A DNA stretch of 9,251 nt from Desulfofustis sp. (GTDB lineage: Bacteria > Desulfobacterota > Desulfobulbia > Desulfobulbales > Desulfocapsaceae), in the NCBI GenBank assembly GCA_030604345.1, contig JAUVWB010000043.1, positions 1 to 9,251 on the forward strand. The letters run 5' to 3'. A program made the position numbers and the translations under genes. The notes beneath the pieces are model-generated. The model saw only the letters and a program-made list of their open reading frames with translations. It had not been told where the DNA came from and ran no database searches. Below, piece by piece: positions 1,206 through 4,433 of the stretch. Every line of letters begins with the position of its first letter. The first letter of the stretch is position 1.

Positions 1206-1421
1206 GCACCGTTGCGTATCTGCTTCAAGAAAGTGTCAGAAGCGGCCCCGCCGCCACCATCCCTTCCACCTGAAGGGCGTTGACCAGGCGTTGCACCCGA
1301 TCGACCGGTTCTTGCAACAACTCCGCCAGAGCCTCGATCGTAACGCTCTGACCGCCAAGCAGGGTCTCCAGGATCTTGCCTCGTAGCTGGCGATCCGAGC
1401 CTACAAAAGGAGTTTGTCTCT

Positions 1422-1452
1422 GGTAATGCCGGCTGCGTCGGCCGGCATTACC
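1422..1452. repeat. Perfect 12-bp inverted repeat inside mutY-like gene
   Basis: GGTAATGCCGGC at 1422-1433 is the exact reverse complement of GCCGGCATTACC at 1441-1452, separated by seven bases. As RNA it would form a 12-bp hairpin. It lies in the stretch encoding IGNAGRRSRHYQR, about 130 bases downstream (in transcription) of the T8 run. There is no U-tract after it on either strand, so it does not look like an intrinsic terminator. Confidence 0.8.
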
Positions 1453-1578
1453 GATTGTCTGTTTCAACAGCACCCCGTAATCCATCAAGGCGTAGTACCA
1501 GTCACGTGGACGTTCGACTTCCAGAGTACGCTCGACCAGCGGCAGGATCTCCCGGTCATCCACGGAATCGGCGGCAGG

Positions 1579-1586
1579 AAAAAAAA
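1579..1586 (-). other. Homopolymer run at the mutY frameshift
   Basis: Eight consecutive A on the plus strand, read as eight U in the mutY mRNA. The upstream frame reads His-Phe-Phe-Phe-Leu-Pro-Pro and the downstream homologous frame reads Phe-Phe-Pro-Ala-Ala-Asp-Ser-Val-Asp-Asp-Arg. Nine T (or six) would join the two frames exactly here, and conserved sequence lies on both sides with no gap. Confidence 0.85.
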
Positions 1587-2121
1587 GTGGAGAAATACCG
1601 TGCGGATATTGGTTTCGATAAATACCAGCGGCCGGTTGTAGGCGAACACGCAAATCGAGGCGGCCGTTGCCGGGCCGATACCGGAAAAGGTTTGCAGCAC
1701 TTCCGGACGATCGGGAATGATTCCGTCCCATTCATCAATCACCTTGATCGCCGCGTCTTGCAGATACCTTGCTCGGCGATTGTAACCAAGGCCTTTCCAC
1801 ACTCCGAGCACCTCGGCAAAGGGAGCCGCGGCCAAGGACTGAAGGGTGGGAAAGCACTTCATGAATCGCGCAAAGAAAGGTGCCACCCGAGTCGTCTGGG
1901 TCTGTTGCAGCATGATCTCGGAGACCAGCACACGGTACGGGGAGATCTCGTCGCGCCAACTGAAATCACGGCGATGCCGGAGATAATGATTGAAGATGGT
2001 GGTCCGGAAACGGCTCAGCGTCTCAGCGCACACGCCGTACTTCTGGTAAAACTCGGCCCAGCTATCGATGAAAAATGTCGGTGGAGACTCACCGGAAGAA
2101 CTGCTTGACCGCCGTGCCATA

Positions 2122-2652
2122 TCACGAGAGGATCCGTTTGCGGTGCTTACGCACCAGCAGATAGCGAAGCATGGCAAACGACGCCACGTAGACTATAAAC
2201 GCGGCCACCAGGCCGACCATGATACTGCCGATGATCAGCGGGATGATAATCTCCTGGCTGAGGTTCATCACCGCCTTGAACTGCTCGAGCATCTCCCACC
2301 CTTCCAGTTTCATCATCCGGACCGCCAGATCGGCAAAGACATGATACACATCAGCGGTGGACGGTCCCTCCCACAGCAAACTGCCGACCCAGTAATTGAA
2401 CGTATAGATCGGCGCCATGGTGGCCACGTTGGTGATCCAAATGGTCACCAGCGCCGCCGGCCGATTCATGTTCAACAGGGTGGCAAGAAACAGCACGATG
2501 GCAAACTGCACTCCTATGGTCGGGGTGAAGGCGATAAAGGTCCCCAGCGCAAACCCGCCGGCAATCGCTCGGGGAGAACGGCGCAGCCGCACCATCCATT
2601 TGATCACCGAGCGGAAAGGGATGACCTGTTTACGAGGAGAAGCGTTTTGCAC
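2122..2652 (-). CDS. DUF2062 family membrane protein
   Basis: A small integral-membrane protein matching DUF2062 (PF09835 family, function unknown). The family core is the stretch from SPRAIAGGFALGTFIAF through PTIGVQFAIVLFLATLLNMNRPAA to TNVATMAPIYTFNYWVG: a Gly-rich first helix, a TPTIG turn, then the N-x-x-T-x-x-P-x-Y motif. A central amphipathic stretch follows (about residues 100-133), then a final hydrophobic segment (about 135-165) and a very basic tail RKHRKRILS. The frame opens at a GTG at 2659-2661, but the Shine-Dalgarno-like AAGG at 2663-2666 is only one base from it. The next GTG (2650-2652) sits eight bases from AAGGTG and is preferred, giving 176 residues. The stop TGA at 2122-2124 is one base from the mutY-like ATG, implying coupled translation. 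I see no convincing promoter in the 233 bases upstream. Confidence 0.85.
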   Translation of the reverse strand: MQNASPRKQVIPFRSVIKWMVRLRRSPRAIAGGFALGTFIAFTPTIGVQFAIVLFLATLLNMNRPAALVTIWITNVATMAPIYTFNYWVGSLLWEGPSTADVYHVFADLAVRMMKLEGWEMLEQFKAVMNLSQEIIIPLIIGSIMVGLVAAFIVYVASFAMLRYLLVRKHRKRILS

Positions 2653-2885
2653 GGCACCCACACCTTAACACAACGTCCCGGTTTGATCCGGCCGGTCAAC
2701 GATGACCTGTCTGTCGCACGGAAAAGATCAAGCGACAATCGCTGCGCTGACCAGACGGCTGCACACAGGCAAGAAATCCAACCTTATATAATAATTCATC
2801 ATGGCCTTTGTGGCCACCATTGATCCTGCAAACAATTAATTGAAGTGCTGGTGAGGTTCGCGGCAATCGACGGAGAAAGGGAGAG
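2653..2885. other. Gap between lipB-lipA and the DUF2062 gene
   Basis: The only sizeable non-coding stretch in the minus-strand cluster. It is clearly more AT-rich than its surroundings around 2780-2845. It holds a perfect 10-bp palindrome CAATTAATTG (2833-2842), a weak hairpin TGGCC-TTTGT-GGCCA (2802-2816) with no T-tract, and a 30-codon minus-strand reading frame (2728-2820) with AGGA just upstream. No clear terminator for the gcv operon and no paired -35/-10 promoter for the DUF2062 gene could be made out. Confidence 0.5.
2661..2666 (-). promoter_or_regulatory. Ribosome binding site deciding the DUF2062 start
   Basis: AAGGTG read on the minus strand, eight bases before the GTG at 2650-2652. 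It overlaps the alternative GTG at 2659-2661, which it therefore cannot serve. Confidence 0.55.
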
Positions 2886-4433
2886 TCAGCTGGTCGTGTC
2901 GCGGCCCATCTGACGAAAGAGCTGGCCTGCCCGAAAAGAACTTCGCACCTGCGGTCCCGATGCCACACCGGTAAAACCAAGGTCAAAAGCCAGCAGACGA
3001 AGCTCGTTGAATTCCTTCGGCGGCAGGTAGCGGTGAACCGGCACATGATCCCTTGTGGGCTGGAGATATTGGCCAAGCGTCAACAATTGGCAGCCTGCTC
3101 GACGCAGATCTTCAAGCGTCTGCCGGATCTCGGGCAGGGTCTCGCCGAGGCCGAGCATTAATCCGGATTTGGTAACAATCGTCGGCGCCGTTTCGCGCAC
3201 CACCTGTAAAAGATCGAGGGAGCGGCGGTAATCGGCCTGCGGGCGGACCCGGTCGTACAATCTCGGCACCGTCTCGATATTATGATTGATCACCTCGGGA
3301 TGTGCCTCACAGAGGCGGCGTAACGATTCCCAATCGCCGCGCAGGTCGGGAATAAGGATCTCATCGGGGGTCCCCGGGACCATCTCGCGGATGGCGCTTA
3401 TGGTGTGGATGAAATGTCCAGCACCGCCATCGGCAAGATCATCCCTGGTCACCGAAGTAAGCACTACATGATCGAGTCCCATCTCGGCAACCGCCATGGC
3501 GATCCGCCGCGGCTCTTCATCATCGAGTGGTTCGGGCCGCCCATGGCCGACAGCGCAGAATCGGCAGTTTCGCGTACAGGTCTGCCCCATGATCATGAAA
3601 GTCGCCGTGCCTCGACCATAGCACTCGAACTGATTGGGGCACCGCGCCTCCCGACAGACTGTCTGCAAACGCCCCCGATCGATCAGGCGGCGTGTCTGTT
3701 CGTACGCCCCTCCGGAGGGAAGCGGTTTCTTCAGCCATTTCGGCTTCGCTAACCGCTGGTTCCGGCCCGCCTCAGGCCCCATGGACTGGACCTGACGACG
3801 GTCGGCAAAGACCTGCTGCAACGCGATGATCAATTCCTGCCGCACCGTCTCGAGGATCACTGGTGATCCGCACTCGCGCTCCAGCGAGGTGATGGCCACC
3901 TGGGTCAAACCGCAGGGATTGACCCAGGTGAAAGGTTCGAGATCGAGGGCGACATTGAAAGCCAACCCATGGAAGGTGATACCGTGGCGAATGGCGATAC
4001 CGACACTGCCCAGTTTTCTTCCGTGCACCCACACACCACGATTCCGCTCGTCGCGGCCGGCCGGCACGCCGCAGGCAGCGGCGGTCCGCAGCATAACCTC
4101 CTCCAATAGATTGACAAAGGCGACAACGCTCAGACCGCGGCGGCGCAGATTGACGATCGGGTAACAGACCAGCTGTCCAGGGCCGTGATACGTCACCTCA
4201 CCGCCGCGCTCCACCCGGATCACCTCAATGCCGCGCTGCCGCAGAAAGGATTCATCGACACTTACATGTTTTGTGGACCCGTGTCTGCCGAGGGTGAATA
4301 CGGCAGGATGCTCAAGGACCAGGCAGCGGTCCGGTGCCGCCGGCTGGCGATGCAACATCTCCACCAGGTGCACTTGCCTGTCGTAGGCTTGCCGATACGG
4401 TAGTACCCCGTGGCTTTCGATCACCAGGTCCAC
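2886..4433 (-). CDS. lipB-lipA: Bifunctional octanoyltransferase-lipoyl synthase (LipB-LipA fusion)
   Basis: A 515-residue fusion of both steps of de novo lipoate assembly. Residues 1 to about 212 are LipB, which moves octanoyl from acyl carrier protein to a lysine of GcvH and other lipoyl domains: RGGEVTYHGPGQLVCYP (76-92), GRKLGSVG with catalytic Lys140, and NPCGLTQV with catalytic Cys174. After a linker of about 15 residues, 227-515 are LipA, the radical-SAM sulfur inserter. Its auxiliary-cluster CX4CX5C is Cys260/265/271, its SAM-cluster CX3CX2C is Cys286/290/293, and the C-terminal RSS(F/Y) motif is at 497-500, where a Ser ligates the auxiliary cluster. Each half has normal family length and nothing essential is missing. 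The start is GTG at 4431-4433, nine bases after the gcvPB stop, with AAAGGA 12 bases upstream. It lies last in the gcv operon, next to its substrate carrier GcvH. An internal ATG (Met218) could yield free LipA. Confidence 0.96.
   Translation of the reverse strand: MDLVIESHGVLPYRQAYDRQVHLVEMLHRQPAAPDRCLVLEHPAVFTLGRHGSTKHVSVDESFLRQRGIEVIRVERGGEVTYHGPGQLVCYPIVNLRRRGLSVVAFVNLLEEVMLRTAAACGVPAGRDERNRGVWVHGRKLGSVGIAIRHGITFHGLAFNVALDLEPFTWVNPCGLTQVAITSLERECGSPVILETVRQELIIALQQVFADRRQVQSMGPEAGRNQRLAKPKWLKKPLPSGGAYEQTRRLIDRGRLQTVCREARCPNQFECYGRGTATFMIMGQTCTRNCRFCAVGHGRPEPLDDEEPRRIAMAVAEMGLDHVVLTSVTRDDLADGGAGHFIHTISAIREMVPGTPDEILIPDLRGDWESLRRLCEAHPEVINHNIETVPRLYDRVRPQADYRRSLDLLQVVRETAPTIVTKSGLMLGLGETLPEIRQTLEDLRRAGCQLLTLGQYLQPTRDHVPVHRYLPPKEFNELRLLAFDLGFTGVASGPQVRSSFRAGQLFRQMGRDTTS
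3780..3793 (-). promoter_or_regulatory. Possible internal ribosome site and start for free LipA
   Basis: Within the fusion gene, ATG at 3780-3782 (Met218) lies in the linker between domains and is preceded by AGG (3791-3793) with an eight-base spacer. Initiation here would give a 298-residue, full-length LipA. The signal is short and could be chance. Confidence 0.3.
3897..3930. repeat. Perfect 12-bp inverted repeat around the LipB active-site codon
   Basis: CACCTGGGTCAA at 3897-3908 is the exact reverse complement of TTGACCCAGGTG at 3919-3930, with a 10-base loop. On the mRNA it covers the codons for TWVN-PCG-LTQV, and the TGC codon of catalytic Cys174 is in the loop. No T-tract follows, so it is not a standard terminator. 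Confidence 0.8.

Follow-up and report, generated by a model that had tools for sequence, protein, structure and literature searches.

We asked why a mutY-like DNA glycosylase gene in Desulfofustis sp. is broken at an eight-base homopolymer. The run might act as a reversible switch, the break might be bridged during expression, the gene might have been lost, or the length of the run might be wrong in the record. Throughout, the window is the whole stretch of 9,251 nucleotides that was analysed; the gene lies on its minus strand, where the run reads as T8 (A8 on the plus strand).

Layout of the locus

The mutY-like gene spans positions 1225–2120 on the minus strand and at full length has 298 codons for amino acids (Table 1). 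Its N-terminal frame starts with an ATG at 2120, continues through T8 and stops at 1485, giving a product of 211 amino acids whose final 30 residues are read out of frame. The other frame, which encodes the C-terminal part, has no stop across the T8 run and ends at 1225, within an ORF of 168 amino acids. An interval of 1485–1731, given for the gene in an earlier note made from the sequence alone, corresponds to the overlap of these two ORFs and not to the gene span. The same note put the full-length protein at about 298 residues, and this agrees with the best homologue, an intact protein of 298 residues (P0001). P0001 is identical to the N-terminal part of the window gene at 181 of 181 residues and to the C-terminal part at 117 of 117. 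Because P0001 residues 1–181 and 182–298 match both halves exactly, no second lesion is seen, which bears out the description of two halves of one glycosylase that meet at T8 without other damage.

Table 1. Features at the broken glycosylase gene, in window coordinates
Feature	Position	Strand	Remarks
DUF2062 protein, intact, neighbour upstream of mutYX	2122..2661	-	PF09835, 124.8 bits
Predicted MutYX-type adenine glycosylase, N-terminal part (residues 1–181)	1579..2120	-	HhH-GPD domain with E68 and E169; PF00730, 65.6 bits; equals P0001 1–181
T8 homopolymer, meeting point of both frames	1579..1586	-	A8 on the plus strand; zero-frame codons CAC TTT TTT TTC CTG
Glycosylase C-terminal part (residues 182–298)	1225..1578	-	Other frame; last core helices and winged helix-turn-helix; equals P0001 182–298
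Out-of-frame tail (30 residues) with the stop codon that ends the 211-residue truncated product	1485..1578	-	

The break removes a conserved part of the protein: 11 of the 39 columns that are invariant in a 60-sequence alignment lie after it. E68 and E169 are retained in the truncated product of 211 residues, but the final core helices and the winged helix are missing from it, and it is probably inactive. The run itself is the sole run of at least eight As or Ts in the whole window. It is unremarkable all the same, since an A or T run of at least eight turns up in 13% of 2000 simulations when the window is modelled as a first-order Markov chain.

The minus-strand genes of the window are gcvT, gcvH, gcvPA, gcvPB, a lipB–lipA fusion, the DUF2062 gene and the mutY-like gene, with gcvH assigned by position and sequence only and the other window genes through family searches. 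In the fusion, LipB octanoyltransferase and LipA lipoyl synthase share one ORF of 515 amino acids (2886–4433, minus strand) that adjoins the glycine cleavage genes; in two relatives, G029 and G028, the two are likewise single ORFs, of 518 and 524 amino acids stop to stop. None of the 12 NCBIfam matches of this ORF is a LipB–LipA fusion model, and the LplA–LipA fusion model matches the LipA half only, under its cut-off. On the plus strand, positions 57–1205 encode a protein of 382 amino acids that is hydrophobic by eye and matches nothing in Pfam or NCBIfam at E 0.001. This ORF is probably a real gene, because its dN/dS of 0.056 against G029 indicates strong purifying selection.

Identity of the glycosylase

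Sequence motifs and a structure model together indicate that the predicted gene product belongs to the MutYX type, clusterless MutY proteins that end in a winged helix, and is not a canonical MutY with FeS cluster and Nudix domain. An HhH-GPD domain is present (PF00730), and E68, which we take to be the MutY catalytic Glu, lies in an SE-MLQQT stretch and is invariant in 60 sequences picked from homologue searches. In comparison with the solved MutY chain 9bs2, a Glu stands opposite its Asp and GIGPAT opposite its GVGPYT, with Ala for Tyr; we assume that this Asp and this Tyr are catalytic residues of the MutY core. The 4Fe-4S cysteine motif, C-x6-C-x2-C-x5-C, was found in 0 of the 120 homologues listed, and the only cysteines of P0001 are at positions 31, 89 and 157. 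Scored against the MutY model TIGR01084, the intact copy in G029 reaches 165.1 bits, under the curated cut-off of 286.5.

The fold points the same way. The structure model of P0001 (pLDDT 91.7) has its best fold match in 8UUC, at 44% identity, TM 0.84/0.91 and an rmsd of 1.6 Å over 270 columns. For the C-terminal part, 8UUC is the sole match among solved structures at E 0.01, and the C-terminal ORF has no Pfam match. The entry is titled 'bacterial clusterless MutYX bound to an Abasic site analog (THF) opposite d(8-oxo-G)'. A meeting abstract describes MutYX from Eggerthella sp. YY7918, which carries a winged helix-turn-helix (PMC12585504), and by joining the structure title with this abstract we infer that 8UUC is the Eggerthella enzyme. 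In the model of P0001, a winged helix-turn-helix takes the place of the Nudix C-terminal domain. The MutY-like label of the earlier note therefore stands as far as a MutY-type glycosylase goes, but by fold, FeS absence and TIGR01084 score the protein is better described as a clusterless MutYX than as a canonical MutY.

We also looked at the glycosylases of 11 relatives (G001, G002, G028, G029 and G065–G071). MutM/Fpg scores over its own cut-off in 10 of the 11, and the Nth model gives 169–189 bits in all 11, under its cut-off of 211.7. MutYX may be the sole MutY-type enzyme of the clade, replacing MutY, because no gene in any of the 11 relatives exceeds the TIGR01084 cut-off by any match, a cut-off that was itself reached in just 7 of 14 control genomes. 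Loss of MutYX may thus have no second enzyme as cover.

The site in other genomes

The intact copy carries the source tag 'lgn', which we take to mean Logan assemblies of public reads. Because 16 residue differences separate P0001 from the G029 copy, the species, strain or population of the window itself is very probably the source of P0001, to judge from the protein comparison. Its cluster at 90% identity comprises 7 member sequences and 5 contigs, and split copies could sit hidden inside it. A protein search with the C-terminal ORF (168-residue query, candidates limited to proteins of about 92–294 amino acids) returned 1238 matches; among the 120 listed, none was above 64% identity, and no stand-alone, near-identical C-terminal half was seen. 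The same DNA had 0 matches in viral contigs.

The closest genome found, G029, aligns with the window from a 4.23 Mb contig and is colinear with it end to end over the whole 9.25 kb at 93.8% DNA identity. Between the two there are 571 mismatches and just two indels. One lies in an intergenic region at position 32, the other in the A8 run, and the latter is the sole coding indel; the other eight ORFs align without a gap. At the A8 site G029 is one base longer, its run is interrupted by another base, and its frame is intact. Against G029, the two mutY halves have dN/dS values of 0.11 and 0.19 and the eight neighbours 0.04–0.19; both halves are under purifying selection, like their neighbours. With G028 as outgroup, which at about 72% identity gives rough polarity and left 146 differences unpolarised, G:C to T:A changes make up 12 of 170 polarised changes in the window lineage and 21 of 206 in the G029 lineage (Fisher P 0.36), and these 9 kb thus bear no mutator footprint in the form of a G:C to T:A excess. 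Since both halves show purifying selection and the footprint is missing, the break is either not real or very young.

Across the family, P0001 matches 45 of 93 genomes at E 1e-30, 11 of them at E 1e-40 or better and the remaining 34 more weakly, at 34–41% identity; a class-wide search of 257 genomes returned the same 11 genomes only at E 1e-40. All 11 orthologues cross the site in a single frame. Over 24 bases at the site, and with duplicate loci taken as one, the maximum length of an A or T run is 8 bases in a single orthologue (L001), 6 bases in six of them, 5 bases in two and 3 bases in another two. L001, with its T8, has an intact gene; L001 and L002 are named as Desulfobulbaceae and Desulfofustis metagenome genomes. 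Loci in which the site pattern was unmatched were excluded from the count, namely L003 (distant, 55%), L006–L008, L017 (ends before the site) and L018–L036, the last being weaker matches that are presumably canonical MutY genes. A candidate second frame break, in G066, was rejected as an assembly cut: its gene is divided between two contig ends, with pieces that overlap in the protein, and the second piece (L037) is the one used in the count.

These comparisons bear directly on the proposal, made in the earlier note, that a single lesion in a slippery run suggests a reversible state and that a switch of this kind would toggle mutation rate. Reversible slippage in T8 would then turn repair on and off, as at the homonucleotide tract of Helicobacter pylori mutY, where an excerpted review gives a mutation rate about 26-fold higher in the off state (PMC8875331); intact and broken forms of an otherwise identical protein are, moreover, both on record here. 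A single fresh lesion, however, is just as much to be expected from a misread base or a newly arisen indel. The tract is not conserved: the orthologue comparison that the note had called for found ten runs of 3–6 bases and one T8 in an intact gene, the run is interrupted in G029, and the mutation spectrum lacks the mark of a mutator. Nor is a run at this place unlikely. Phe-Phe-Phe follows an ETN-R-V stretch in 106 of the 120 homologues listed, 67 of the window's 145 counted Phe codons are TTT, and a run of at least eight bases at such a motif is expected about 1 time in 5 (0.214). T8 would thus be there because a conserved Phe-Phe-Phe motif is written with TTT codons in this lineage, and repeat-specific selection seems unnecessary to account for it. 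The note had also named what would tell against a switch, relatives with no homopolymer and an intact frame together with additional decay in this strain; such relatives exist, as the interrupted run of G029 shows, and additional decay was not seen. We consider a phase-variable switch very unlikely.

Possible rescue, loss or miscount of the run

Could the broken gene still yield some full-length protein, through −1 ribosomal frameshifting at U_UUU_UUC or through RNA polymerase slippage? The slippery-heptamer rule for −1 frameshifting is consistent with the first route in that the zero frame contains the heptamer T TTT TTC, from which a −1 shift enters the C-terminal frame directly. However, no Shine–Dalgarno-like pattern lies within 20 bases upstream, and the downstream RNA fold has a z of 0.71, its stability being equalled or exceeded by 150 of 200 shuffles. 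In the searched part of the review PMC5009743, the string U_UUU_UUC occurs only in a paramyxovirus slippage site. The second route has precedents: in an excerpted study of E. coli and Buchnera, insertions during transcription become exponentially more frequent as homopolymers lengthen, every one of them in an A or T run (PMC5574713), and a human gene broken at eight As yields about one tenth full-length product by slippage (PMC1088944, in excerpt). Against this, the same excerpt reports selection against A/T runs that is evident, in a large proportion of bacterial genomes, from nine bases, longer than T8, and none of the 11 orthologues examined has a frame break that would need rescue. We therefore regard rescue as highly improbable. 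The same judgement applies to a compound case, equally remote, in which a real T8 allele and an intact allele share one population of an anaerobic bacterium of sulfate-reducer-like type and −1 frameshifting or transcript slippage at U_UUU_UUC makes the clusterless MutY a leaky, revertible mutator.

So far the break is private to this record, which points to a homopolymer-length error, the most likely explanation, or to a very recent loss by slippage. In the latter case a real one-base indel, through replication slippage or through loss of a base in or next to the run, would have inactivated mutYX very recently. The lesion does coincide with the window's longest A/T run, and more than a quarter of the invariant columns lie past it. 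The G029 site is one base longer and interrupted, so the event could have created T8 instead of being caused by it. Yet an identical intact protein is on record, very probably from the same population, no second lesion accompanies the break, and the absence of a G:C to T:A excess means that a loss, if there was one, happened too recently to show in the mutation spectrum. A fresh loss is possible, but we hold it to be somewhat doubtful.

We favour, as just about probable, the reading in which an ordinary, functional-looking mutYX gene is split only because the length of T8 was miscalled by one base in the record. Homopolymers are places where some sequencing methods miscount. In the scheme that we propose, the conserved Phe-Phe-Phe in TTT codons would have given rise to the T8 run, and a length called one base off would then have produced the apparent split of an intact gene. 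An error is favoured because the one-base difference is private, sits at the longest run and is accompanied by an identical intact protein in public assemblies. Published excerpts are in line with this: nanopore errors typically fall at homopolymers and short repeats (PMC9600527), and a survey of 1106 prokaryotic genomes expected BLASTp-validated singleton frame breaks to be sequencing errors and not genuine indels, while leaving it undecided whether its 3244 doubly confirmed singletons were likely errors or pseudogene indels (PMC3711429). On the other side, the record is not generally poor at homopolymers, since six further runs in the window, of 6–7 bases, align with G029 free of indels, and a genuine indel of very recent origin would look no different from an error in such comparisons. 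The earlier note had itself named a homopolymer error in read or assembly as a rival to its switch, and the identical intact P0001 and the intact relatives fit that error as the likeliest reading.

The case carries a caution: one clean frame break in a homopolymer is not to be taken for a switch. If the eight-base allele is real and revertible, on the other hand, the range of the H. pylori mutY mutator switch would grow to include a free-living anaerobe as well as the clusterless MutYX branch.

Three known systems frame the locus. As in H. pylori, a MutY-type gene is broken at a homonucleotide tract (PMC8875331, in excerpt); unlike there, the tract is not conserved, the protein is clusterless, and neither reversion nor a second state at the DNA level was seen. 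With MutYX of Eggerthella sp. YY7918 (8UUC) the predicted glycosylase shares the missing FeS motif, the winged-helix C-terminal domain and the Glu at the position of the catalytic Asp, whereas that enzyme comes from a distant bacterium and the window copy is split by a frame break. The GeneTack survey defined its singletons by its own gene prediction and clustering, and the present break was found by other means; like the singleton frame-break genes in the excerpted survey (PMC3711429), however, this gene has one break confirmed by intact homologues, here with 11 unbroken orthologues.
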